Below, piece by piece: positions 1 to 23,561 of a stretch of 23,561 nt of DNA. The stretch spans positions 1-23,561 of the IMG/VR virus record IMGVR_UViG_3300036766_001044. One strand, written 5' to 3'. The position numbers and the translations under genes were made by a program. Below the pieces are notes generated by a model. It saw nothing but the letters and a program-made list of their open reading frames with translations. It had not been told where the DNA came from and made no database searches. The stretch is from a virus. How positions within the stretch are numbered: position 1 is the first letter of the stretch; every line of letters starts with the position of its first letter.

Positions 1-53
1 AGCGGGTGATGGGACTCGAACCCACGATATCTTGCTTGGGAAGCAAGCGTTCT
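1..53 (-). repeat. attL: Left attachment-site repeat (3' fragment of tRNA-Gly)
   Basis: These 53 bp are identical to 23509-23561. Read on the minus strand they give the 3' part of a tRNA-Gly: the end of the D stem, an anticodon arm with loop TTCCCAA (anticodon CCC), the T arm with GTTCGAGTCC, and an acceptor 3' strand CACCCGC. Bases 54-75 do not supply a matching 5' half (no GCGGGTG), so this copy is a tRNA remnant and the intact gene should continue beyond 23561. The integrase stop codon is only about 28 bp away. The repeat is inferred to be the att core. Confidence 0.9.
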
Positions 54-81: not shown

Positions 82-933
82 TCATGGCTTCGGTTTCAGC
101 ATGTTTCCCACCGGCAAGTACTGCCGCATGGCTTCGAGTTGCAGGGTGCGGGTGTAGCGGTGGATCATGGCACTGTCTGACCAACGTCCGCCCGCCATGA
201 GGACACGCTCGGGCGCGCCGTTGAGAGTGGCGAGGACCGCGAAGGATCGGCGTAGATCGTGGGGCGAGAGTTTGATGTCGAGAGTTTTTCCCCAATGCCC
301 CACAATGCGATTGAGTTCGTTTGGCTGTAACGCCTTCCCGGTGCGCTCCCTGACAAACAAGGTGGGCGCGGGGTGCATGTCTTGGCGATAATCTTTCCAG
401 CGTTCGATGTGGGCGGCGGTCTCCTGGCTGAATACAGCCGCTTTCCACTGTCCGCCTTTCACGATCACCTGGAGGACTCTCCTTTCGGTGTCCGTGTCGG
501 CTTGAAGCAGGCGGCAGAGTTCGGAGCATCGCAGGCCGGTGTCGAGCATGAGTGCACATAGGGCAAGGTCACGTGCGCCGCGTAAAGACATTGTGTTGAA
601 GGATGCGAGTAAGCGCAGGGCGGTATCGAGATCGAGCGCGCGTTGTGGTTTTCCCTGAATGCGTTTCAATCGAGCGGACAGCGCGGGATGAGTCTGGCCG
701 TGTAACCAGCCGATGAACTTTTGACAGGCCGCCATGGCCACACAGCGATTGGAGTTTCCCCATTCGGTGCGGGATACAAACGTGACTAGACCAGGTGCGG
801 TCACGGTTGATGAGTCACATTCGTTCAGGAAGAGTTCAAGGATGAATGCGTATTTGCGTCGGGTGGTTTCGGCGTAGGGGTGTGAGGCAAGGAAGTTTCC
901 CAAGTCATTATTCAATTGTTCCTCCATGGGCAT
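82..933 (-). CDS. int: Tyrosine recombinase (phage-type integrase)
   Basis: A 283-aa site-specific recombinase that would integrate and excise the element at the tRNA-Gly 3' end. Residues 10-85 form a SAM-like core-binding domain. The catalytic domain (about 95-280) shows the full set of active-site residues: R135 in GLRCSEL, K159 in VIVKGG, H225 and R228 in SPHDLRRS, W251 in GGRWSD and the nucleophile Y260 in HRYTR. The length is normal for a small phage integrase. I see no extra insertion of the integron-integrase (IntI) kind between the catalytic boxes, so it is unlikely to be the enzyme that moves the attC cassettes elsewhere in the window. Start chosen at 933; a second in-frame ATG at 927 is equally possible. 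It is transcribed toward the adjacent att site. Confidence 0.95.
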   Translation of the reverse strand: MPMEEQLNNDLGNFLASHPYAETTRRKYAFILELFLNECDSSTVTAPGLVTFVSRTEWGNSNRCVAMAACQKFIGWLHGQTHPALSARLKRIQGKPQRALDLDTALRLLASFNTMSLRGARDLALCALMLDTGLRCSELCRLLQADTDTERRVLQVIVKGGQWKAAVFSQETAAHIERWKDYRQDMHPAPTLFVRERTGKALQPNELNRIVGHWGKTLDIKLSPHDLRRSFAVLATLNGAPERVLMAGGRWSDSAMIHRYTRTLQLEAMRQYLPVGNMLKPKP

Positions 934-4063: not shown

Positions 4064-4141
4064 GTGTCAGTCTCGACCTTTCGTCCTGACTTGACAAAAT
4101 ATCGCGTGATGTTGGAAGAGTTTGACTGCCCAGGTGAATGA
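4064..4141 (+). CDS. Possible micro-ORF
   Basis: A 25-codon frame from a GTG just after the previous stop: start, SVSTFRPDLTKYRVMLEEF, then DCPGE. Composition is protein-like and the stop overlaps the next candidate start at 4134. There is no clear ribosome-binding site, so it may be translated by coupling or not at all. Confidence 0.3.
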   Translation: MSVSTFRPDLTKYRVMLEEFDCPGE

Positions 4142-4268
4142 GGATGCTTTATTTCCTTTGTCCCTGACGGATGTTGTGAAGATGTGCATCGAGAAGGTTG
4201 CAAAAGAGAAGTTTCCAGACGTGAAGTTTGAAAGTAAGCGAAAGAGATTTGTCCGTCTGGATTATTAG
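4134..4268 (+). CDS. Small basic hypothetical protein
   Basis: 44 aa from a GTG start (an in-frame TTG lies at 4122, just after GGAAGAG). The peptide reads NEDALFPLSLTDVVKMCIE, then KVAKEKFPDVKFESKRKRF, then VRLDY: an amphipathic helix and a basic end, with good codon use. It overlaps the micro-ORF upstream by 8 nt. Function unknown. Confidence 0.45.
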   Translation: MNEDALFPLSLTDVVKMCIEKVAKEKFPDVKFESKRKRFVRLDY

Positions 4269-4312
4269 AAAGATGATGTACAAGTTGGTCAATACATAGT
4301 TGGAAGGACTCT

Positions 4313-4531
4313 ATGTACAAATGTATTTTGTGTGAGCAAGACCTGAAAGAAGCCCCGACTGACGATTTTTGGTTTGGGGTGTCCACTCTGAAAGGTATCC
4401 ATTATCATTGTGTAGATCACCTTGCAGATGTTCTCGCGGCAATTAGACAAAGCCTTCCAACTACGAATGCAGTGGATTTGCTAGAGTCGCCCGAGAAATC
4501 AGCGAGTCTGGCAAAACCCGCAAACCACTAA
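4313..4531 (+). CDS. Small zinc-binding-like protein, cassette-like
   Basis: 72 aa with GGAAGG before the ATG. The N-terminus carries CILCEQDL (CxxC) and HYHCVDHL about 28 residues later, which together can make a four-ligand zinc site. The base composition is more AT-rich than in the phage genes around it. It ends 10 bp before an isolated attC-type GTTGGGC core, which suggests it is the first gene of a cassette cluster running to 5127. Function unknown. Confidence 0.55.
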   Translation: MYKCILCEQDLKEAPTDDFWFGVSTLKGIHYHCVDHLADVLAAIRQSLPTTNAVDLLESPEKSASLAKPANH

Positions 4532-4540
4532 TTCAAGTAC

Positions 4541-4547
4541 GTTGGGC
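4541..4547 (+). other. Isolated attC-type R' core (GTTGGGC)
   Basis: GTTGGGC matches the GTTRRRY core of integron attC sites. It lies between two small AT-rich genes, and the next ATG follows 10 bp later, as in integron cassettes. I could not find a convincing partner arm upstream, so the site is partial or degenerate. Confidence 0.35.
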
Positions 4548-4556
4548 AGATACCTT

Positions 4557-4784
4557 ATGGCAAAGAAGAAGCATAAAAACGTAGAAATTGAACAAATCCA
4601 CACTTGGCTAAATATGTGGCTAAAGACGCTTGGCAAAGAAGAATCATATTGGGATGGTGTGTGTGCAAGTGAATGTCATGTAGCCTATGGTATGGTTATA
4701 GGCGATGGAGATAGTTTTATTAATTGGCTTTCGGCTAATTGGGAAAATCTGCCCAACAATGCGTGCACTGGACAATTGGCGTAA
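4557..4784 (+). CDS. Cassette-encoded hypothetical protein
   Basis: 75 aa, MAKKKHKNVEIEQIHTW..., acidic and Trp-rich in the middle (WLNMWLKTLGKEESYWDGV). The ATG at 4557 is chosen over 4542 because it follows the GTTGGGC core at 4541-4547. The C-terminus LPNNACTGQLA is encoded by the left half of an attC-like site (GCCCAACAATGCGTGCA), a hallmark of integron cassette genes whose stop codon lies inside attC. AT-rich compared with neighbours. Function unknown. Confidence 0.6.
   Translation: MAKKKHKNVEIEQIHTWLNMWLKTLGKEESYWDGVCASECHVAYGMVIGDGDSFINWLSANWENLPNNACTGQLA
4751..4784 (+). other. Truncated attC-like left arm
   Basis: GCCCAAC (R'' type, RYYYAAC) followed by AATGCGTGCACTGGAC resembles the left arm of the attC at 17270-17166 (GCCCAACAATGCTTGCAGCGGAC on the minus strand). 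No matching right arm follows; the next cassette gene begins at 4799. It is probably an attC that lost its 3' half. Confidence 0.45.
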
Positions 4785-4798
4785 GGAGAAAATAAATC

Positions 4799-5044
4799 AT
4801 GTTGCTGAAAATCTACGAACTCATAAAGAAAATCGAAGGCGAAATTGGTAATGATGCAACTGTCAGGTTATCCGCTGGCGAAGGTACGTTTATCATCAGG
4901 GTTGATTGGTGGGATGATGACTTCCACGCCATGCACCATTTCAGCAATACGGAACTGGCGCAAATTGTGGATGATAGTTTGCCGTTGAATTACTTTGTTG
5001 AGTATTGCAAAAAAGAATATGCCCGTAAAAAGAGCGCGGGCTAA
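4799..5044 (+). CDS. Cassette-encoded small acidic protein
   Basis: 81 aa with TAAGGAG upstream of the ATG. MLLKIYELIKKIEGEIGNDA is followed by beta-like and acidic stretches (FIIRVDWWDDDFHAMHHF) and a helical end (YFVEYCKKEYARKKSAG). The TAA stop lies within the R'' core of the complete attC at 5039-5127, as is usual for integron cassettes. AT-rich. No family recognised. Confidence 0.65.
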   Translation: MLLKIYELIKKIEGEIGNDATVRLSAGEGTFIIRVDWWDDDFHAMHHFSNTELAQIVDDSLPLNYFVEYCKKEYARKKSAG

Positions 5045-5127
5045 CAAATCGTGCAGGCGACAAGGGCAGGCGGTGGTTGTCTACTGCCAAAGTTATACCG
5101 CCCTTGCGCCTAACGCAACCGTTGACA
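5039..5127 (+). repeat. attC: Integron attC site (plus orientation)
   Basis: Left arm: GGCTAAC (5039-5045), then CGTGCAGGCGACAAGGGC. Right arm: ACCGCCCTTGCGCCTAACG, then GTTGACA (5121-5127). The arms pair as AGGCG/CGCCT and CAAGGGC/GCCCTTG with an unpaired A between AGGCG and CAAGG, the extrahelical base typical of attC hairpins. Length 89 nt is within the known attC range. It directly follows a small cassette-like gene whose stop lies in it. Confidence 0.7.
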
Positions 5128-5216
5128 CGTACGCGGGGAGGTGGTATCTTCGCTTGTGGCGCACTGATTGGATGCCCCCCTCATCCCGTCTTTGCGCCGA
5201 GAAAACCCCATTGAAA

Positions 5217-5253
5217 GAGACGTCCATCTGGTACCGGTGGGCGTCTCGCTTTT
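5217..5253 (+). terminator. Terminator after the left cassette cluster
   Basis: GAGACG (5217-5222) pairs with CGTCTC (5242-5247), extended by inner CCA/TGG pairs, and is followed by GCTTTTAATT. It closes the upstream transcription unit before the virion-operon promoter. Between the attC site and here (5128-5216) I see no gene. Confidence 0.7.
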
Positions 5254-5286: not shown

Positions 5287-5315
5287 TTGACTCAATCGTA
5301 ATATTGTGCTATCTT
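5287..5315 (+). promoter_or_regulatory. Promoter of the virion operon
   Basis: TTGACT (5287-5292), 17-bp spacer, TATCTT (5310-5315) with an extended -10 TG one base upstream. The predicted start is near 5322, so the RNA would begin right at the hairpin described next. This is the only clear promoter between the upstream terminator and the packaging genes. Confidence 0.55.
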
Positions 5316-5321
5316 GATTTT

Positions 5322-5378
5322 GGCCGTCCCGCATCCCTGATTGCGGACGGCCAGTCTTTTAATACAGGGATGCGGGAC
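5322..5378 (+). promoter_or_regulatory. Leader with mutually exclusive hairpins (attenuator-like)
   Basis: GGCCGTCC plus GCA (5322-5333) pairs with TGC plus GGACGGCC (5342-5352) and is followed by AGTCTTTT, a classic terminator. But GTCCCGCATCCCTG (5326-5339) is also a perfect 14-bp inverted repeat of CAGGGATGCGGGAC (5365-5378). Forming the second, longer hairpin would dissolve the terminator. The structure lies between the promoter and the first gene at 5392. Control by a protein or by translation is inferred; no riboswitch class is recognised. Confidence 0.6.
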
Positions 5379-5391
5379 ACGCAAGGAAAAG

Positions 5392-5766
5392 ATGATCTCT
5401 CTTGACGCGATAAAAGATTTCGGACCGTGGGCGATTTTCAGTTGGCTGGTGTTGGCGCAACTGGTGATCCCGCTTGCTACAAAGATGTTGCCTGCTGCCC
5501 AGCGGCGCGCGGTGGTAGTGGAAGATCGCAAGTTGGATATTGAAGATCGGCGCGTGGATGAGTTGGCGAAAATTGCAGACGCGGTGTTGGTTAGCAACGA
5601 ACGCATGGCGGCTATCGAGAAGAGTGTGGATATGTATGGCAGTGGTCACGGGTTGATTGTTTCAAATCAGGCTGAAATTATTCGTGTGCTCGGGGAAATC
5701 ACAAGGTACGTAGCTATCAGGGAAGATCGTTTTGCTGGCGGTCGCGAAGTGCGCAAGGATATGTGA
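5392..5766 (+). CDS. Membrane-anchored coiled-coil protein, first gene of virion operon
   Basis: 124 aa with AAGGAAAAG directly before the ATG. One hydrophobic segment at residues 9-32 (FGPWAIFSWLVLAQLVIPLA) is followed by a charged helical region (VVVEDRKLDIEDRRVDELAKI) and a soluble C-terminus. One transmembrane helix plus a coiled coil could fit a holin- or spanin-like protein, but similar small proteins also occur without known role. Its TGA overlaps the next start (TGATG), so it is coupled to the small-terminase candidate. Confidence 0.6.
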   Translation: MISLDAIKDFGPWAIFSWLVLAQLVIPLATKMLPAAQRRAVVVEDRKLDIEDRRVDELAKIADAVLVSNERMAAIEKSVDMYGSGHGLIVSNQAEIIRVLGEITRYVAIREDRFAGGREVRKDM

Positions 5767-6140
5767 TGGTTGCGAAAAGAAAGCCCAAGGCGAAAGCCAA
5801 AGGCAAGAAGGGGGGGAAAGGTGGTAATCAAAATGCGCGCAAGCATGGCCTGTACGCAAAAAATCAACCGCCGGTTGACCCTGCGGTAGCGATTGGGGCG
5901 CAACGACGCGAAGCCATTTTAGATAAGATTATTTTGGACTTGGATGCGCTGTATTGGACGCTAAAAAAAAACGAAGAAAAGTTCCAGTGCGTCAATTCGA
6001 TCTCGAACGCGGTCACATCCGCGAACGGATGCCAGCGGACGGCGGCGCTGGTCTCGGGCAAGTTGACGATCTTGAACGAAGCCATTGAAAGGTTGTTGAA
6101 CGAAGATGATCCGTATGATGCAAGTACCACTGTCGGGTGA
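5766..6140 (+). CDS. terS: Putative terminase small subunit
   Basis: 124 aa (a GTG one codon earlier could also start it). The N-terminus is very basic (VAKRKPKAKAKGKKGGKGG) and leads into NQNARKHGLYAKN, a motif common at the start of proteins encoded just before large terminases. The rest is helical (REAILDKIILDLDALYWTL; SGKLTILNEAIERLLNEDD), which fits an oligomeric DNA-recognition subunit. It overlaps the large terminase by up to 35 nt. The assignment rests mainly on position and the NQNARKHG motif; direct HTH evidence is weak. Confidence 0.6.
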   Translation: MVAKRKPKAKAKGKKGGKGGNQNARKHGLYAKNQPPVDPAVAIGAQRREAILDKIILDLDALYWTLKKNEEKFQCVNSISNAVTSANGCQRTAALVSGKLTILNEAIERLLNEDDPYDASTTVG

Positions 6141-7626
6141 TTTTCTTTACCGTAAGGTAAAGGCTCGATCCTGGCGTAACCCGGAAGAATGGGCACGCCT
6201 GAACGGTGTTCACCTGCGTCCGTACCAGGTGGAAGTGGTGTGCGCTATTGTGGACTCGGTGGTGAATAAGCGCGGCCTGACCTTTGTTGTCGTCCTGCCG
6301 CGGCAAAGTGGCAAGAATGAATTACAGGCGCACTTGCTGGCATGGATGATGTTTCGCTTTTCTCGCAAGGGGGCGCGCATGGTCTCGGTCTCTCCGACCT
6401 TCAAACCGCAAACAATCAATAGTATGGATCGTGTGCGCGCGTCGCTGGATCGCAATTCTGTGACGATGGGCAATTGGCGCGCGTCAAGCGGCTTTGTGTA
6501 CAAGTATGGACAGTCTCGCTTGCAATTCTTTTCCGCTGATCCTTCTGCGAAAGTGGTCGGCGCTACTGCTGACATGGTGCTCTCGGTGGATGAAGCGCAA
6601 GACGTGGCAATCAATAAATTCGATAAAGATTTTGACCCGATGACGGCCTCCACAAATGCTACGCGCGTCTTTTGGGGTACGGTCTGGACGGCGGATACCT
6701 TGCTGGCCAGGCAAATGCGGCAAGCCAAGCAGGAGCAGGAGCGGGATGGCATCAAACGGTTGTTCATATACAGCGCGGAGGATGTCCGCAAGTTGGTGCC
6801 TGAATATGGTCTGCACGTGGATCGCGTCGTCGCTGAAAAAGGGCGGCAACATCCGCTCGTGAAGACTCAATATTTCTGCGAAGAAATCGACGCGCAAGCC
6901 TCCATGTTCCATCCCGGTCGGCGCGCTCTTATGCTTGGTGATGAACCGGCGCGAGAAACGCCCGGCGGGGCCGGCCTACCGTACGCGTTTCTTTTGGATG
7001 TGGCCGGGCAGGATGAAGCGAGTTTGAACCTGGACGGCTTGGGCAACCCGGGGCGGGATAGCACTACGCTCTCTATCGTGGCTGTGGATCTGAGTACGTT
7101 GGCGACACTGCAAGCGCCTACATACCGCGTGGTCAAGCGCGTGGCGTGGACGGGGCTCAATCATCTGGATGTGTTCGGACAGATAAAAGCCATGGCTGAC
7201 TTGTGGCGTCCTATGTACCTGGCCGTGGATGCTACCGGAGTGGGGGAGGGGATGTGGGCATTATTGGACAAGTCGTATCCTGGGAAAGTGCTTCCGGTGA
7301 AATTCTCGCAACAAGTGAAAAGTGAGATTGGTTGGAAGTTTCTTGCCATCATCGAAACCGGCCGCTTTCGAGATTGCTGTTCGACTGCGGAAGTGGATGA
7401 ACAATATCTCAAGTGTCAAAGCGAGATATTGCCTGGTCCGGCAAAGACCTTGCGATGGGGCGTGAAGGATGGGACGCGTGGCGCGGAGGGCAGACTCGTA
7501 CACGATGACTTTGTATTGGCGGATGCACTGTGCGCGGTGCTGGACGATCTCAAATGGTTGATCTCTTCTGAGACCGTGATGATCCATCCGGTTGATCCAC
7601 TGAAGGCAATGGATAGGAATTTTTAA
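6106..7626 (+). CDS. terL: Terminase large subunit (packaging ATPase-nuclease)
   Basis: 506 aa, normal length. ATPase domain: adenine-binding region near RPYQVEVV (38-45), Walker A LPRQSGKN with K70, Walker B VLSVDEAQDV with D162-E163, and a probable coupling region near FWGTVWTAD (189-197). Nuclease domain of RNase H fold: D298 (LLDVAGQDE), D375 (YLAVDATGVG) and D467/D468 (HDDFVLADAL). It pumps DNA into the prohead through the portal and cuts it. The start could be 6106, 6115 or 6118; the first gives the longest overlap with the small subunit. An intact motor shows that this element packages DNA itself or recently did. Confidence 0.95.
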   Translation: MIRMMQVPLSGDFLYRKVKARSWRNPEEWARLNGVHLRPYQVEVVCAIVDSVVNKRGLTFVVVLPRQSGKNELQAHLLAWMMFRFSRKGARMVSVSPTFKPQTINSMDRVRASLDRNSVTMGNWRASSGFVYKYGQSRLQFFSADPSAKVVGATADMVLSVDEAQDVAINKFDKDFDPMTASTNATRVFWGTVWTADTLLARQMRQAKQEQERDGIKRLFIYSAEDVRKLVPEYGLHVDRVVAEKGRQHPLVKTQYFCEEIDAQASMFHPGRRALMLGDEPARETPGGAGLPYAFLLDVAGQDEASLNLDGLGNPGRDSTTLSIVAVDLSTLATLQAPTYRVVKRVAWTGLNHLDVFGQIKAMADLWRPMYLAVDATGVGEGMWALLDKSYPGKVLPVKFSQQVKSEIGWKFLAIIETGRFRDCCSTAEVDEQYLKCQSEILPGPAKTLRWGVKDGTRGAEGRLVHDDFVLADALCAVLDDLKWLISSETVMIHPVDPLKAMDRNF

Positions 7627-9241: not shown

Positions 9242-11218
9242 ATGAGTAATCCACGAAATACAGAATTGCGCTTCGATAGTTTTAGTGAGAGCGCGCCGAC
9301 CAAAACTGCAAAGGGATACGAGATACTTTGCATCCACCCGTCGCAAGCGAACGGCTGGCGTTTTTCTGAGGACGTTTTGAAGAACGCGGTCAAGTACTTC
9401 GATGACGTGGAATGTTTCGCCGATCACAACGTGATGGGTGAATCGGTTCACGACCTGGCTGGCGTTTTCTACAATCCCCGTTGGGATGAGAGTCGGCCTG
9501 GCATTGTGGCCGATCTGCGTCCTGCCGGGCCTGCCGCCGATCTATTGCGGATGTACGCCGACGAAATGTTGAGTGACGAAGACCATCACCCGAACATGGG
9601 TTTCTCGCCGGTCATCATCTTCACAGCGAAAGGCGAAGACGTGGAGAATATATTGCGTGTCCGCTCTGTGGACATGGTAATCAATCCCGCGTTCAAGACA
9701 AAATTCATCGCTGAGAAATTTCAGCAAAGGAGTACTACTACGATGGAAAAGAAAATCGAACCTGTGGCGGATGTTGTCCCGGAAGAGACCATTGCCGCCA
9801 TGAGAGAAATCACCGGCGCGCAAGCTGAAATCACTGCGGCTGTACAGGGCGCGAAGGAAACGCATTTGGAAATGTGTTCCAACCTGCTGAACACGGCCCT
9901 GGATGCGGCGAGCGTGGATCTGCCGGAAGCGGCGCTCAAGATGATCCGCGAGCGTTTCCAGAACAAGACCTTCAAACCGACCGAGTTGAAGGCGGAAATC
10001 GACTCGTTCAAAAATGCCTTCGTTCAGCAATCGGCGGCGCTCTCGATTGTCGGGCCGGCACAGGTTACCGGGATGTTCAACTCCGGCGACCAACTGCAAG
10101 CGGCCATGGATGACCTGTTGGCCGCGCCGCGCGAGAAGGGCGCCGAGTCCCTGAAGGTGCATCGTTTCTCCGGCATCCGTGAAGCCTATCTCATGTTGAC
10201 GGGTGACTACGGCTTCGTGGGCGACGTGGAAGAACGGCTTGCGAAGTTTCAGGGCACGACTGCCAACTTCCCCAACCTGGTCGTGAATGCCTTGAACAAG
10301 GCTGTGGTGGCCAACTGGAACATGCTCGGCAAGGCCGGGTACAACTGGTGGGAGAAGATCGCCACCGTTGAACCGTTCGAGAGTTTGCAGTCCATCACCT
10401 GGCTTCGGCTGGGTACGATTGCCAGTCTCCCGACCGTGGCCGAAGGCGCGGAGTACACCGAACTCGCCCTGGGCGACAACGGCGAAACGTCCACCTTCAT
10501 CAAGTACGGTGGTTATCTCTCCTTCACATTGGAAGCCATGGATCGCGACGACACGCGCAAACTGCGCGCGGCTCCGCGTGAGATTGCAAGTGCGGCTATT
10601 CGCAACATCAGCGAACAGATTGCGGCTATCTTCTCGGCGTCGTCCGGGGCTGGTCCCACTCTTGCGGATGGCGGCGCGCTGTTCAATTCGACGGCCGTCA
10701 CCACCAAAGGTGGGCACGCCAACCTGTTGACGACCGCCCTCGGCACGGATTACACGGCTTGGAACACGGTTGCGGCGGCCATGTACAACCAGCCTTTGCT
10801 GGTTGCGAATGCCGTGGGTGACAATGTGCTGACCTACGGCAAGAAACAGGCGCTCGAACCGACCATCTGCCTGGTGCCGCGCGCTCTCAAAGTGGCGGCG
10901 GAAGCGTTGTTCATCCCGCGTTGGGATGTTTCTGGTTCCATTCCCGCGACTACGGCTGTGACCTGGGGCGGGCGGGTTGATCCGGTGACGGTCCCGGATT
11001 GGACAGACGCCACGGATTGGGCGGCCGTGATTGATCCGGCGCTCCTGCCGGGCGTGATGATCGGTACGCGTTACGGACTGATCCCGCAAATCATCCTGGC
11101 GGGTGAACAGACTAACCCGGCCATGTTTATGAACGATGAAAGCCGCTTGAAGGTACGTCACTTCCTGGCGACCGGCATCGGCAACTGGTCGGCGTTGCAC
11201 AACAACCACGTCGCGTAA
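9242..11218 (+). CDS. Prohead protease - scaffold - major capsid protein fusion
   Basis: 658 aa. Residues 1-165 look like an HK97-type (S78) prohead protease: H62 in CFADHN, S122 in MGFSPV, and the family-end pattern RVRSVDMVINPAF. Residues 168-330 are mostly helical and charged, like a scaffold/delta domain. From about 335 the sequence reads as a capsid of the HK97 fold, Mu gpT-like group: NFPNLVVNALNKAVV, WWEKIATVEPFES, RLGTIASLPTVAEGAEY, then IKYGGYLSFTLEAM. An in-frame ATG at 9743 with its own AAAGGAG would yield a separate scaffold-capsid product of 491 aa. GGTGA precedes the first ATG. The autoproteolytic maturation route is inferred from the family. Confidence 0.85.
   Translation: MSNPRNTELRFDSFSESAPTKTAKGYEILCIHPSQANGWRFSEDVLKNAVKYFDDVECFADHNVMGESVHDLAGVFYNPRWDESRPGIVADLRPAGPAADLLRMYADEMLSDEDHHPNMGFSPVIIFTAKGEDVENILRVRSVDMVINPAFKTKFIAEKFQQRSTTTMEKKIEPVADVVPEETIAAMREITGAQAEITAAVQGAKETHLEMCSNLLNTALDAASVDLPEAALKMIRERFQNKTFKPTELKAEIDSFKNAFVQQSAALSIVGPAQVTGMFNSGDQLQAAMDDLLAAPREKGAESLKVHRFSGIREAYLMLTGDYGFVGDVEERLAKFQGTTANFPNLVVNALNKAVVANWNMLGKAGYNWWEKIATVEPFESLQSITWLRLGTIASLPTVAEGAEYTELALGDNGETSTFIKYGGYLSFTLEAMDRDDTRKLRAAPREIASAAIRNISEQIAAIFSASSGAGPTLADGGALFNSTAVTTKGGHANLLTTALGTDYTAWNTVAAAMYNQPLLVANAVGDNVLTYGKKQALEPTICLVPRALKVAAEALFIPRWDVSGSIPATTAVTWGGRVDPVTVPDWTDATDWAAVIDPALLPGVMIGTRYGLIPQIILAGEQTNPAMFMNDESRLKVRHFLATGIGNWSALHNNHVA
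9726..9745 (+). promoter_or_regulatory. Internal ribosome-binding site and start within the protease-capsid gene
   Basis: AAAGGAG (9726-9732), 10-nt spacer, then ATG (9743-9745), in frame with the 9242 gene at residue 168, exactly at the end of the protease domain. Use of this start would make extra capsid protein relative to protease, as nested starts do in other phage head genes. Confidence 0.6.
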
Positions 11219-17165: not shown

Positions 17166-17270
17166 GGCCAACGGCTGGCTTTAGCGGCGGCGCATTGTAA
17201 AGACACGCCCGCTAAAAACAACCTACTAAATCGGCGCGACTCGCGCCGTCCGCTGCAAGCATTGTTGGGC
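17166..17270 (-). repeat. attC: Integron attC site of cassette C
   Basis: Read on the minus strand: GCCCAAC (R'', 17270-17264), then GCTTGCAGCGGACGGCG. The right arm CGCCGCCGCTAAAGC is followed by GTTGGCC (R', 17172-17166). The inner arms pair (AGCGG/CCGCT, CGGCG/CGCCG) with an unpaired A between AGCGG and CGGCG. The loop carries an extra palindrome GGCGCGAGTCGCGCC. Length 105 nt. It contains the stop of the upstream cassette gene. Confidence 0.75.
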
Positions 17271-17468
17271 TTCTTCTTCGCTGATGATCCATTCACAACG
17301 AGGACAATACCCAACCCATGAGCGTTCTTCATCACGCTCTTCTGTTGCCACTTCGACATACTCACGCATTTCTAAAAATCCTTTATGACAATGCGGGCAA
17401 TTCGGTTTTGGCATTACGTACTTTTGCGGGTGATACACCACGCGAATTTTGTTATTTTTCTTTTGCAT
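17226..17468 (-). CDS. Cassette C: small double-CxxC zinc-ribbon-like protein
   Basis: 80 aa starting MQKKNNKIRVVYHPQKYVMP. It has NCPHCHKGF (CxxC) and, 27 residues on, GYCPRCEW (CxxC), enough for a zinc ribbon. The ATG at 17468 is 7 bp after the attC core of cassette B, the usual cassette start. A longer reading to 17579 would run back through that attC and is rejected. The C-terminus AQQCLQRTARVAPI is encoded by the attC arm. Function unknown; small zinc-ribbon proteins are common among cassette genes. Confidence 0.65.
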   Translation of the reverse strand: MQKKNNKIRVVYHPQKYVMPKPNCPHCHKGFLEMREYVEVATEERDEERSWVGYCPRCEWIISEEEAQQCLQRTARVAPI

Positions 17469-17475
17469 GATAGAA

Positions 17476-17569
17476 GCCCAACGGTTTGCGTAACCCGCAG
17501 AAACGGGTTGTGCAAGACCCTTCAATTTTGCCCCGACGTAGTTTCTGTTGGGTTCACGCTTTGTTCGGC
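17476..17569 (-). repeat. attC: Integron attC site of cassette B
   Basis: Minus strand: R'' GCCGAAC (17569-17563), spacer AAA, L'' GCGTGAACCC; later L' GGGTTACGC, spacer AAACC, R' GTTGGGC (17482-17476). L'' and L' pair perfectly except for one extrahelical G (GCGT-G-AACCC against GGGTT-ACGC). R'' and R' pair with a central mismatch. A separate hairpin (TTGC...GCAA) is formed in the loop part. Length 94 nt. This is the textbook attC arrangement. Confidence 0.75.
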
Positions 17570-17728
17570 GTCGCTCCATCCGAAGAAGCGAATACCTTTA
17601 TTCGTCCATCCGAAATCTTCGCCGTGATGTAATAACCAACTTTCAGCCTGCTCATAAGTTTCAAACATCGCTGGCTTCCCATCAAAACGCAAAAAATCTC
17701 GTAACCCAAAATCAATGATTGACCACAT
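17522..17728 (-). CDS. Cassette B: hypothetical protein
   Basis: 68 aa, MWSIIDFGLRDFLRFDGKPA..., with AAAGGATAG before the ATG, 21 bp after the R' core of cassette A. The middle (FETYEQAESWLLHHGEDFGWT, split by loops) looks like a small alpha/beta fold with aromatic residues. The C-terminus DAEQSVNPTETTSGQN is encoded by the left attC arm. No family recognised. Confidence 0.6.
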   Translation of the reverse strand: MWSIIDFGLRDFLRFDGKPAMFETYEQAESWLLHHGEDFGWTNKGIRFFGWSDAEQSVNPTETTSGQN

Positions 17729-17748
17729 AGTCTATCCTTTCACGAAAC

Positions 17749-17806
17749 GCCGAACGGCTGTTTTTAGCGGCGGTGTTCTTCCGTCCGCTGCAAAACTTTG
17801 TTAGCA
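17749..17806 (-). repeat. attC: Integron attC site of cassette A
   Basis: Minus strand: R'' TGCTAAC (17806-17800), L'' GTTTTGCAGCGGACGG, short loop, L' CCGCCGCTAAAAAC, R' GTTCGGC (17755-17749). The arms pair (AGCGG/CCGCT, CGG/CCG, GTTTT/AAAAC) with the unpaired A between AGCGG and CGG that is also present in the sites at 17166 and 18308. Length 58 nt, near the known minimum. Confidence 0.7.
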
Positions 17807-17988
17807 AGCGAGGAAGAACGCAACGACCGCAAGACCATAATAAAATCTTCGCGCGCATCACCCGTAAGCAGAGCCAAGAACTCTTTGCGCTCACTTTCGG
17901 ATGCGCGAAATTTTTTGATAAAGACAGGATCGGGAGCGGGCTTTCGACCTGCTCCTTTTCGTGAACCGCCGTGACTATTCACGCGCAT
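17764..17988 (-). CDS. Cassette A, second gene: small basic protein
   Basis: 74 aa from the ATG at 17988, which overlaps the end of the preceding gene by 14 nt. The N-terminus GGSRKGAGRKPAPDP is an AT-hook-like/GAGRK basic tail; then KFRASESERKEFLALLTG, REDFIMVLRSLRSS, a helical pair that could be a ribbon-helix-helix or a small antitoxin-like fold. The C-terminus SSLANKVLQRTEEHRR is encoded by attC. With the upstream gene it forms a two-gene cassette under one promoter, an arrangement common for toxin-antitoxin pairs in cassettes (inference, not shown by motifs). Confidence 0.55.
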   Translation of the reverse strand: MRVNSHGGSRKGAGRKPAPDPVFIKKFRASESERKEFLALLTGDAREDFIMVLRSLRSSSLANKVLQRTEEHRR

Positions 17989-18187
17989 TCTCAATGGCGT
18001 TTTCCAATAGAGATATAACAACCGATTTTTTTACAAATTTATTGTCACTATCAACCCATCGGCTACCAGATTCATTGGCGAGCATGTAAATGCTCTCAGC
18101 GCAATCGTTTACTGTGCCAGTTGAAATGTCGCCCCAATTCATGACATATTGGCTATCAATATTGTCTACGCAAAACTGATTGTTCAT
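17975..18187 (-). CDS. Cassette A, first gene: hypothetical protein
   Basis: 70 aa, MNNQFCVDNIDSQYVMNWGD..., acidic, ending in a helical KKSVVISLLENAIENARE. Ribosome-binding site AGGAG is 7 nt before the ATG. It has its own strong promoter and a palindromic operator-like site (18211-18267). It overlaps the next gene. AT-rich against the phage background. No family recognised. Confidence 0.6.
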   Translation of the reverse strand: MNNQFCVDNIDSQYVMNWGDISTGTVNDCAESIYMLANESGSRWVDSDNKFVKKSVVISLLENAIENARE

Positions 18188-18210
18188 TTCAAACTCCTGT
18201 TTTTTGAATT

Positions 18211-18267
18211 GCTAAACCGTATTGTTTAGCGTGAAAACAGTATACCGTAATCAAATAGAGTTGTCAA
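18211..18267 (-). promoter_or_regulatory. Cassette A promoter and operator-like palindrome
   Basis: Minus strand: TTGACA (18267-18262), 17-bp spacer, TATACT (18244-18239), an almost perfect sigma70 promoter. Just downstream of the start point is the perfect inverted repeat GCTAAAC-6-GTTTAGC (18211-18230), a likely repressor site or 5' hairpin. This promoter can also read through cassettes B and C. Confidence 0.75.
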
Positions 18268-18307
18268 GGTTTTTAGATCGCCAGTTTTCGAGCAACTTTG
18301 CTCCGCT

Positions 18308-18362
18308 TGCTAACATTGAGATTAGCGGCGGAGATCGTCCGTCCGCTGGTTGAGAGTTGGCC
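18308..18362 (-). repeat. attC: Integron attC-like site at the head of the right cluster
   Basis: Minus strand: GGCCAAC (18362-18356), AACCAGCGGACGG, short loop, CCGCCGCTAAT, GTTAGCA (18314-18308). The arm sequences CAGCGGACGG and CCGCCGCTAA are the same as in the sites at 17749 and 17166. Length 55 nt, marginally short. It marks the upstream boundary of cassette A. Its own cassette gene, if any, is not clear: 120 bp separate it from the end of the gene at 18482. Confidence 0.6.
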
Positions 18363-22148: not shown

Positions 22149-22230
22149 CGGCCTGCGCATGATCCGCTCGCCGTGAAAACTGAGCGAGTGAAGCGCGTGT
22201 ATGTCACGCCTGAGCATCGTCGAAGAGTCT

Positions 22231-22333
22231 GCTCTTGATCTGTGGCGGTTGAGGCCGCCACCCCCGAAGGGCGCATCCGCTCTTGATCTGTGGCGGTTGA
22301 GGCCGCCACCCCCGAAGGGCGCATCTGCTCTTG
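22231..22333 (+). repeat. 48-bp tandem repeat, two copies plus partial third
   Basis: The unit starts GCTCTTGATCTGTGGCGG at 22231 and 22279, with a partial GCTCTTG at 22327. The two full copies are identical except for the last position. Each unit holds a GTGGCGG/CCGCCAC hairpin and a CCCCCGAAGGG mini-hairpin. Confidence 0.9.
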
Positions 22334-23508: not shown

Positions 23509-23561
23509 AGCGGGTGATGGGACTCGAACCCACGATATCTTGCTTGGGAAGCAAGCGTTCT
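23509..23561 (-). repeat. attR: Right attachment-site repeat (3' part of tRNA-Gly, runs out of window)
   Basis: Identical to 1-53. On the minus strand it reads as the anticodon arm (CCC), T arm and acceptor 3' strand of tRNA-Gly without CCA. The 5' part of the tRNA should lie beyond 23561, so this is probably the end at which the functional gene is kept. The window stops exactly where the repeat stops. Confidence 0.85.

Follow-up and report, generated by a model that had tools for sequence, protein, structure and literature searches.

The cluster of small genes on the plus strand of the window (that is, the whole stretch of 23,561 nucleotides analyzed, positions 1-23,561 of IMG/VR record IMGVR_UViG_3300036766_001044) is very probably an integron cassette array seated at an attI-like site of a phage, with the integron integrase IntI supplied in trans and the cassettes carried to new hosts. 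Cassettes, attC sites, a conserved acceptor and cassette turnover at G/TT (the slash marks the crossover) are observed at the level of sequence, and the window has no integron integrase; from these features we infer recombination activity and the action of IntI in trans. The window has the marks of a temperate phage, namely an integrase, an attachment repeat lying in a tRNA, a terminase, a portal and a capsid (Table 1). When the genes at 5392 and 1206 were used as queries, contig L001 was the sole relative recovered. At 22228-22323 the window also contains a 48-nt unit in two tandem copies, 98% identical.

Table 1. Positions of the analyzed features, in window coordinates unless another contig is given.
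Feature	Position	Strand	Evidence or remark
Terminal 53-nt direct repeat in tRNA (attachment core)	1..53, second copy 23509-23561		100% identity; Rfam tRNA at both ends
Phage tyrosine integrase, XerA/XerC-like, not an integron integrase	82..933	-	Pfam PF00589, 8.7e-24
Small gene, about 65 aa, frameshifted in the window	4070..4268	+	tblastn to L029 protein in two frames
attI-like acceptor GATGTACAAGTTGGTCAATACATAG/TT	4275..4301	+	crossover between G4299 and T4300
Cassette 1 (242 bp)	4300..4541	+	ORF 4313-4531 (72 aa) plus attC
attC of cassette 1, complete, 93 nt	4455..4547	+	R1 64.9 bits; bottom-strand fold
Fused cassette 2/3 (580 bp)	4542..5121	+	ORFs 4557-4784 and 4799-5044, one complete attC
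attC left half, GCCCAACAATGCGTGCA at 4751, right half lost	4751..4773	+	no attC fold, fold z +2.05
Last attC of plus array, 89 nt	5039..5127	+	R1 61.5 bits; fold z -2.23
Sigma-70-like promoter TTGACA-17-TATCTT	5122..5150	+	consensus scan, 10/12, TG before -10
Large terminase	6106..7626	+	phrog_5909, 5e-9
Minus cassette c (310 bp), attC 17166-17270	17172..17481	-	8/8 pairing; R1 70.4 bits
Minus cassette b (273 bp), attC 17476-17569	17482..17754	-	8/8 pairing; R1 78.2 bits
Minus cassette a (559 bp, two small ORFs), attC 17749-17805	17755..18313	-	8/8 own-R'' pairing; R1 47.9 bits
First attC of minus array	18308..18362	-	R1 35.3 bits
G438 IntI-like gene and array	L213:859-5825 (IMGVR_UViG_3300009285_001180)		intI co-oriented with array; separate phage integrase

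The plus array extends from G4299/T4300 to G5121/T5122. The 5' end of cassette 1, TTGGAAGG, pairs at 8/8 positions with its own R'', CCTTCCAAC; the left half of its attC lies at 4455 (CCAACTACGAATGCAGTGG...CCACTAATTCAAGTACGTTGGGC), and the site sits in the end of the 4313 gene. The unit that follows consists of two cassettes that became fused when the attC at 4751 lost its right half. Its 5' end, TTGGGC, matches the R'' at 4751 and not that at 5039 (6/8 pairs), and the remaining half-site is 87% complementary over 23 nt to the minus-strand attC at 17248-17270. Both the half-site and the fusion are common to the window and L001. An earlier, sequence-only reading of this DNA had described much of the layout correctly: the small genes at 4313, 4557 and 4799, the GTTGGGC core at 4541, the half arm at 4751, the complete 89-nt attC at 5039-5127 with the 4799 gene stopping inside it, and the location of this cluster on the plus strand and of another, at 17-18 kb, on the minus strand are all present. 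It had counted two broken sites; the one at 4751 is indeed a half-site, whereas the one ending at 4541-4547 is a complete attC. The present analysis adds to that reading the attI-like site at the head of the array and the finding that no integron integrase is present.

The -35 box of the promoter-like sequence at 5122..5150 overlaps R' of the last attC, and a similar sequence, TTGACA-17-TATACT, occurs in minus cassette a (18267-18239); promoter-like matches in the consensus scan were no more numerous than in shuffles. Two consecutive promoter-like sites at 5122-5250 and 5287-5365 each have a hairpin and a T run after them and may give rise to short transcripts.

The fold z of single attCs is modest (about -2), so the case for these sites rests on covariation and junctions. 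Ten candidate attCs from the window and L001 were aligned to build a covariance model, R1. Standard pairs occupy 90.5% of the cells in these ten sequences versus 24-38% when the partners are slid, and 10/19 pairs show changes on both sides. Because the structure was derived from the ten sequences themselves, R1 matches outside them serve as an independent test; such matches were found in L006, L012, L029, L030, L035, L112-L114, L186-L188 and host genomes. Sites of the window score 61-78 bits, apart from two minus-strand sites with 35 and 48. The covariance search proposed by the earlier reading has thus confirmed the window sites and revealed attCs in independent relatives. Another signature, which played no part in R1, is pairing between the cassette 5' end and its own R'', expected if a cassette was once circular: at least 7/8 bases pair in 24/28 cassettes, versus 23% of other pairings. 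The sites have the boxes R'', L'', L' and R', an extrahelical base and a foldable bottom strand, and the units are bounded at G/TT with 5' ends complementary to their own R'', as in integron cassette arrays. Counting complete attCs, the plus array has two and the minus array four, and the window also falls under the definition of a CALIN (at least two attCs, no integrase). An Rfam scan of the window at gathering thresholds returned no attC, and a regular-expression search for attC right arms matched L001 only. A home-made attC scanner failed to separate real sites from shuffles and was dropped for the covariance model.

The plus array opens with a conserved 25-bp attI-like motif, ATGTACATTCCG..AAACACTAG/TT. 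Pairwise identity among seven phages is 0.74 from -24 to the G, compared with 0.43 upstream and 0.35 downstream. The site occurs 14 times across 12 phage records, in every case ahead of an attC array. Searching viral contigs with the motif yielded 15 matches, 13 of them with an array within 500 nt, second arrays on the L112 and G437 records among them; for sites found in this way the motif match is circular and the arrays are not. The matches in L194 and L197 lack an array and were taken as chance. Two attI-plus-array sites per record are seen for L112/L202 (IMGVR_UViG_3300012228_000007), where, as in the window, the arrays are on opposite strands, and for L198/L204 (IMGVR_UViG_3300028840_002990).

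The small gene that precedes the acceptor adjoins it in several phages. It is intact in L029, L112 and L186-L188, differs at the 3' end in L113 and has an in-frame stop in L114. Its homologues in L029, L112, L114, L186, L187 and L188 are followed by the 25-base motif, with some changes, and then by different cassettes. The motif is absent from L113, which has the small gene and four attCs, and from L030 and L035, which have attCs upstream of the terminase. In several relatives the small gene is on one side of the array and the packaging genes are on the other, with TerL downstream of the array in L006, L029, L030, L035, L112, L113 and L186. On sequence grounds, an attI role of the conserved phage site is well supported.

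Turnover of cassettes is evident from L001, a contig sharing 99.7% identity with the window across 12 kb. Cassette 1 and the fused cassette 2/3 are both there, with three further cassettes between them and a different cassette ahead of cassette 1, whose neighbours thus differ on both sides. Every junction of these differences is at G/TT. Upstream of cassette 1 the window reads ATACATAG/TTGGAAGG and L001 reads AAACCG/TTGGAAGG; after cassette 1, TACG/TTGGGC in the window corresponds to TACG/TTAGGC ... ACCG/TTGGGC in L001. The difference is a gain in L001 or a loss in the window, and the L001 sequence stops within the array. Its incomplete first cassette contains a tRNA-like gene (L001:229-298) with an anticodon left unassigned by ARAGORN. 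The slot is occupied by other cassettes in related phages. In L012, a lone cassette sits in the virion operon (10670-10953), flanked by a holin-like gene and a connector gene and with a 5' end matching its R''. The earlier suggestion that the element is a regular cassette acceptor gains strong support from these three observations; aligned relatives do contain cassette-sized indels, with edges exactly at G/TT in L001, and the outcome that would speak against it, constant gene content without such indels, was not seen. The trait is patchy, as capsid relatives in 31 bacterial genomes contain zero R1 attCs.

Homologous recombination between phage arrays, with IntI active only in the distant past, could make similar differences. 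Members of the group resemble one another in their attC arms (about 80% in one pair), which offers some homology, but the compared junctions have only about 8 bases in common around G/TT, and the first cassette at an attI retains a 5' end that matches its own attC; we regard this explanation as unlikely. Slightly less probable again is a passive CALIN, in which part of a host array would have been taken up in a single illegitimate recombination event and would since have been inert and in decay. The lack of intI in the window, the half-site at 4751 and the frameshifted neighbour gene would all fit such a history. It is disfavoured by the near-identical L001, which differs by whole cassettes at G/TT, and by conservation of the acceptor across diverse phages with different cassettes. 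The decay proposed in the earlier reading is mostly contradicted, both by the complete attC at 4455-4547 and by the recent turnover in L001; damage is confined to the half-site and the frameshifted 65-aa gene.

The source of the recombinase is a separate question. No integron integrase was found in the window or in 14/17 other phage records searched, and neither the window nor any of the 17 has a TIGR02249 match above the cut-off of 265 bits. Most of the 17 lack any IntI match, and G037 has a 13-bit one. The exception is provided by G438, whose IntI-like gene (349 aa, 257.9 bits, just below the cut-off) is divergent and has the IntI extra-domain motif. It lies just upstream of a small-gene homologue and the attI motif, which are followed by five attCs; two further attCs are upstream of intI. 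Used as a query, this protein recovered no more relatives among viral contigs in a single-protein scan that reaches close relatives only. A different possibility is that the tRNA-site integrase of the phage itself, rather than an IntI, moves the cassettes. This enzyme is the tyrosine recombinase of the window, and Xer-like enzymes are related to IntI, but the 283-aa protein scores only 14.4 bits with TIGR02249 and lacks the IntI extra-domain motif, and in G438 the same acceptor stands beside an IntI-like gene, which makes the proposal quite improbable. An assembly artefact, with repeats stitched into arrays in metagenomes, is hardly credible even though all the phage records are metagenomic contigs, since the junction overlap of about 8 bases is shorter than common assembly k-mers and the pattern recurs in 12 records, most of them from different data sets.

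An array served by IntI in trans remains the preferred reading. The enzyme would come from a chromosomal integron of the host or from another phage such as G438. It would insert circular cassettes at the phage attI (attI x attC) and rearrange them by attC x attC recombination during lysogeny or infection, and the phage would then transport the cassettes to new hosts. Among Anaerolineae, 73/298 genomes have intI above the cut-off. The last 13 bases of the phage motif have their best match within 450 nt of intI at the attI position expected near the intI 5' end in 9/20 host integrons, where 0.58 would be expected by chance, although some of these loci are near relatives and the 20 are not fully independent; with all 27 motif positions, the best score is at the attI position in 6/20 loci, and in 11/20 the best match lies away from attI. 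A search allowing one mismatch gave four motif matches in 396 host genomes; in the wider locus of one of these, L206, neither an R1 attC nor a match to the IntI of G438 was seen.

The 53-nt attachment repeat of the window occurs in 12/298 Anaerolineae genomes with up to three mismatches, in five of them exactly. Six of these 12 have IntI matches, two of which are fragmentary or frameshifted. Several genomes with the phage attachment tRNA are rich in R1 attCs, e.g., G272 with 25 and G188 with 23. No host genome with the prophage of the window was found, nor was any shared cassette; the cassette 1 protein had no match among the 298 Anaerolineae genomes. In Leptolinea sp. HRD-7 (G014:C1:440220-443465, the same genome as L052), decayed intI pieces lie at a distance of about 3 kb from an attC.

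The minus array (17172-18313) contains three cassettes and four attCs. In the first attC, R'' is GGCCAAC, the complement of the TTGGCC that remains at the far end; the three cassettes thus apparently entered the core of a resident attC. Going by this arrangement, the first attC is probably the acceptor of the minus array. A shortened attC of the same type is found elsewhere in the genome of L023 (128-249), a phage with 43% capsid identity; it has flanks similar to those in the window, one of them 36/36 identical, and no cassettes between them. This nearly empty site is consistent with an empty version of the minus-array acceptor.

Phage-borne CALINs and integrons have been described previously (Qi et al., 2023; PMC9892861). 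That study reported attC arrays in phages without intI, cassettes with DNA methyltransferases, activity of phage attCs with IntI1 in an assay, and a Shewanella prophage CALIN with its own attI; it does not mention Chloroflexi. The window resembles these CALINs in having an attC array without intI, and its relatives in having cassettes that encode methyltransferases. It differs from them in the 25-bp attI-like site conserved in 12 phage records and in the different cassettes of near-identical phages. As for the sedentary chromosomal integrons of Anaerolineae, their attCs are matched by the phage-derived R1, and the ends of their attI sites, e.g., CCGTATAATCAATAG/TT and CATATAAACCCTAG/TT, resemble the phage site. 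Host arrays, however, lie beside an intI facing away, whereas most phage arrays have no intI and that of G438 is co-oriented. The L012 cassette and the minus array resemble cassette insertion at non-classical (attG) sites, being inserted at G/TT away from any attI-like motif, and the plus array differs in lying at a conserved attI-like site. In the literature, which was covered in part, no description of a conserved phage attI was found. Set against the known phage-borne attCs (PMC9892861), a phage attI shared across a lineage, together with live cassette turnover, seems to be a new variation.

By its sequence, the window has an attI at the array start that resembles host attI; it lacks intI in cis and is therefore classed as a phage-borne attI-plus-CALIN platform and not as a complete integron. 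Going by its sequence organization, the plus array would work like an integron. The chances are about even that it represents a distinct viral integron class, in which a Chloroflexota phage lineage with its own attI family, mostly integrase-less, keeps an array of counter-defence and other small genes and shares cassettes by means of a host IntI or a phage one like that of G438; phages and chromosomal integrons would then make up a single cassette pool. Among the genes of the G438 array there are matches to a DNA methyltransferase and to a Mom-like modification protein, and one cassette of L113 is a methyltransferase. These DNA modification cassettes in related phages suggest a reservoir of small accessory genes, those for anti-restriction among them.

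In summary, the virus lineage appears to be a travelling cassette shelf for Chloroflexota hosts. For the movement of cassettes between chromosomal integrons in environmental bacteria, this lineage offers a concrete vehicle, and the dedicated attI with visible turnover makes it a directly testable system. The integron may here be regarded as a plug-in site for phage accessory genes, including the DNA modification genes found in relatives.
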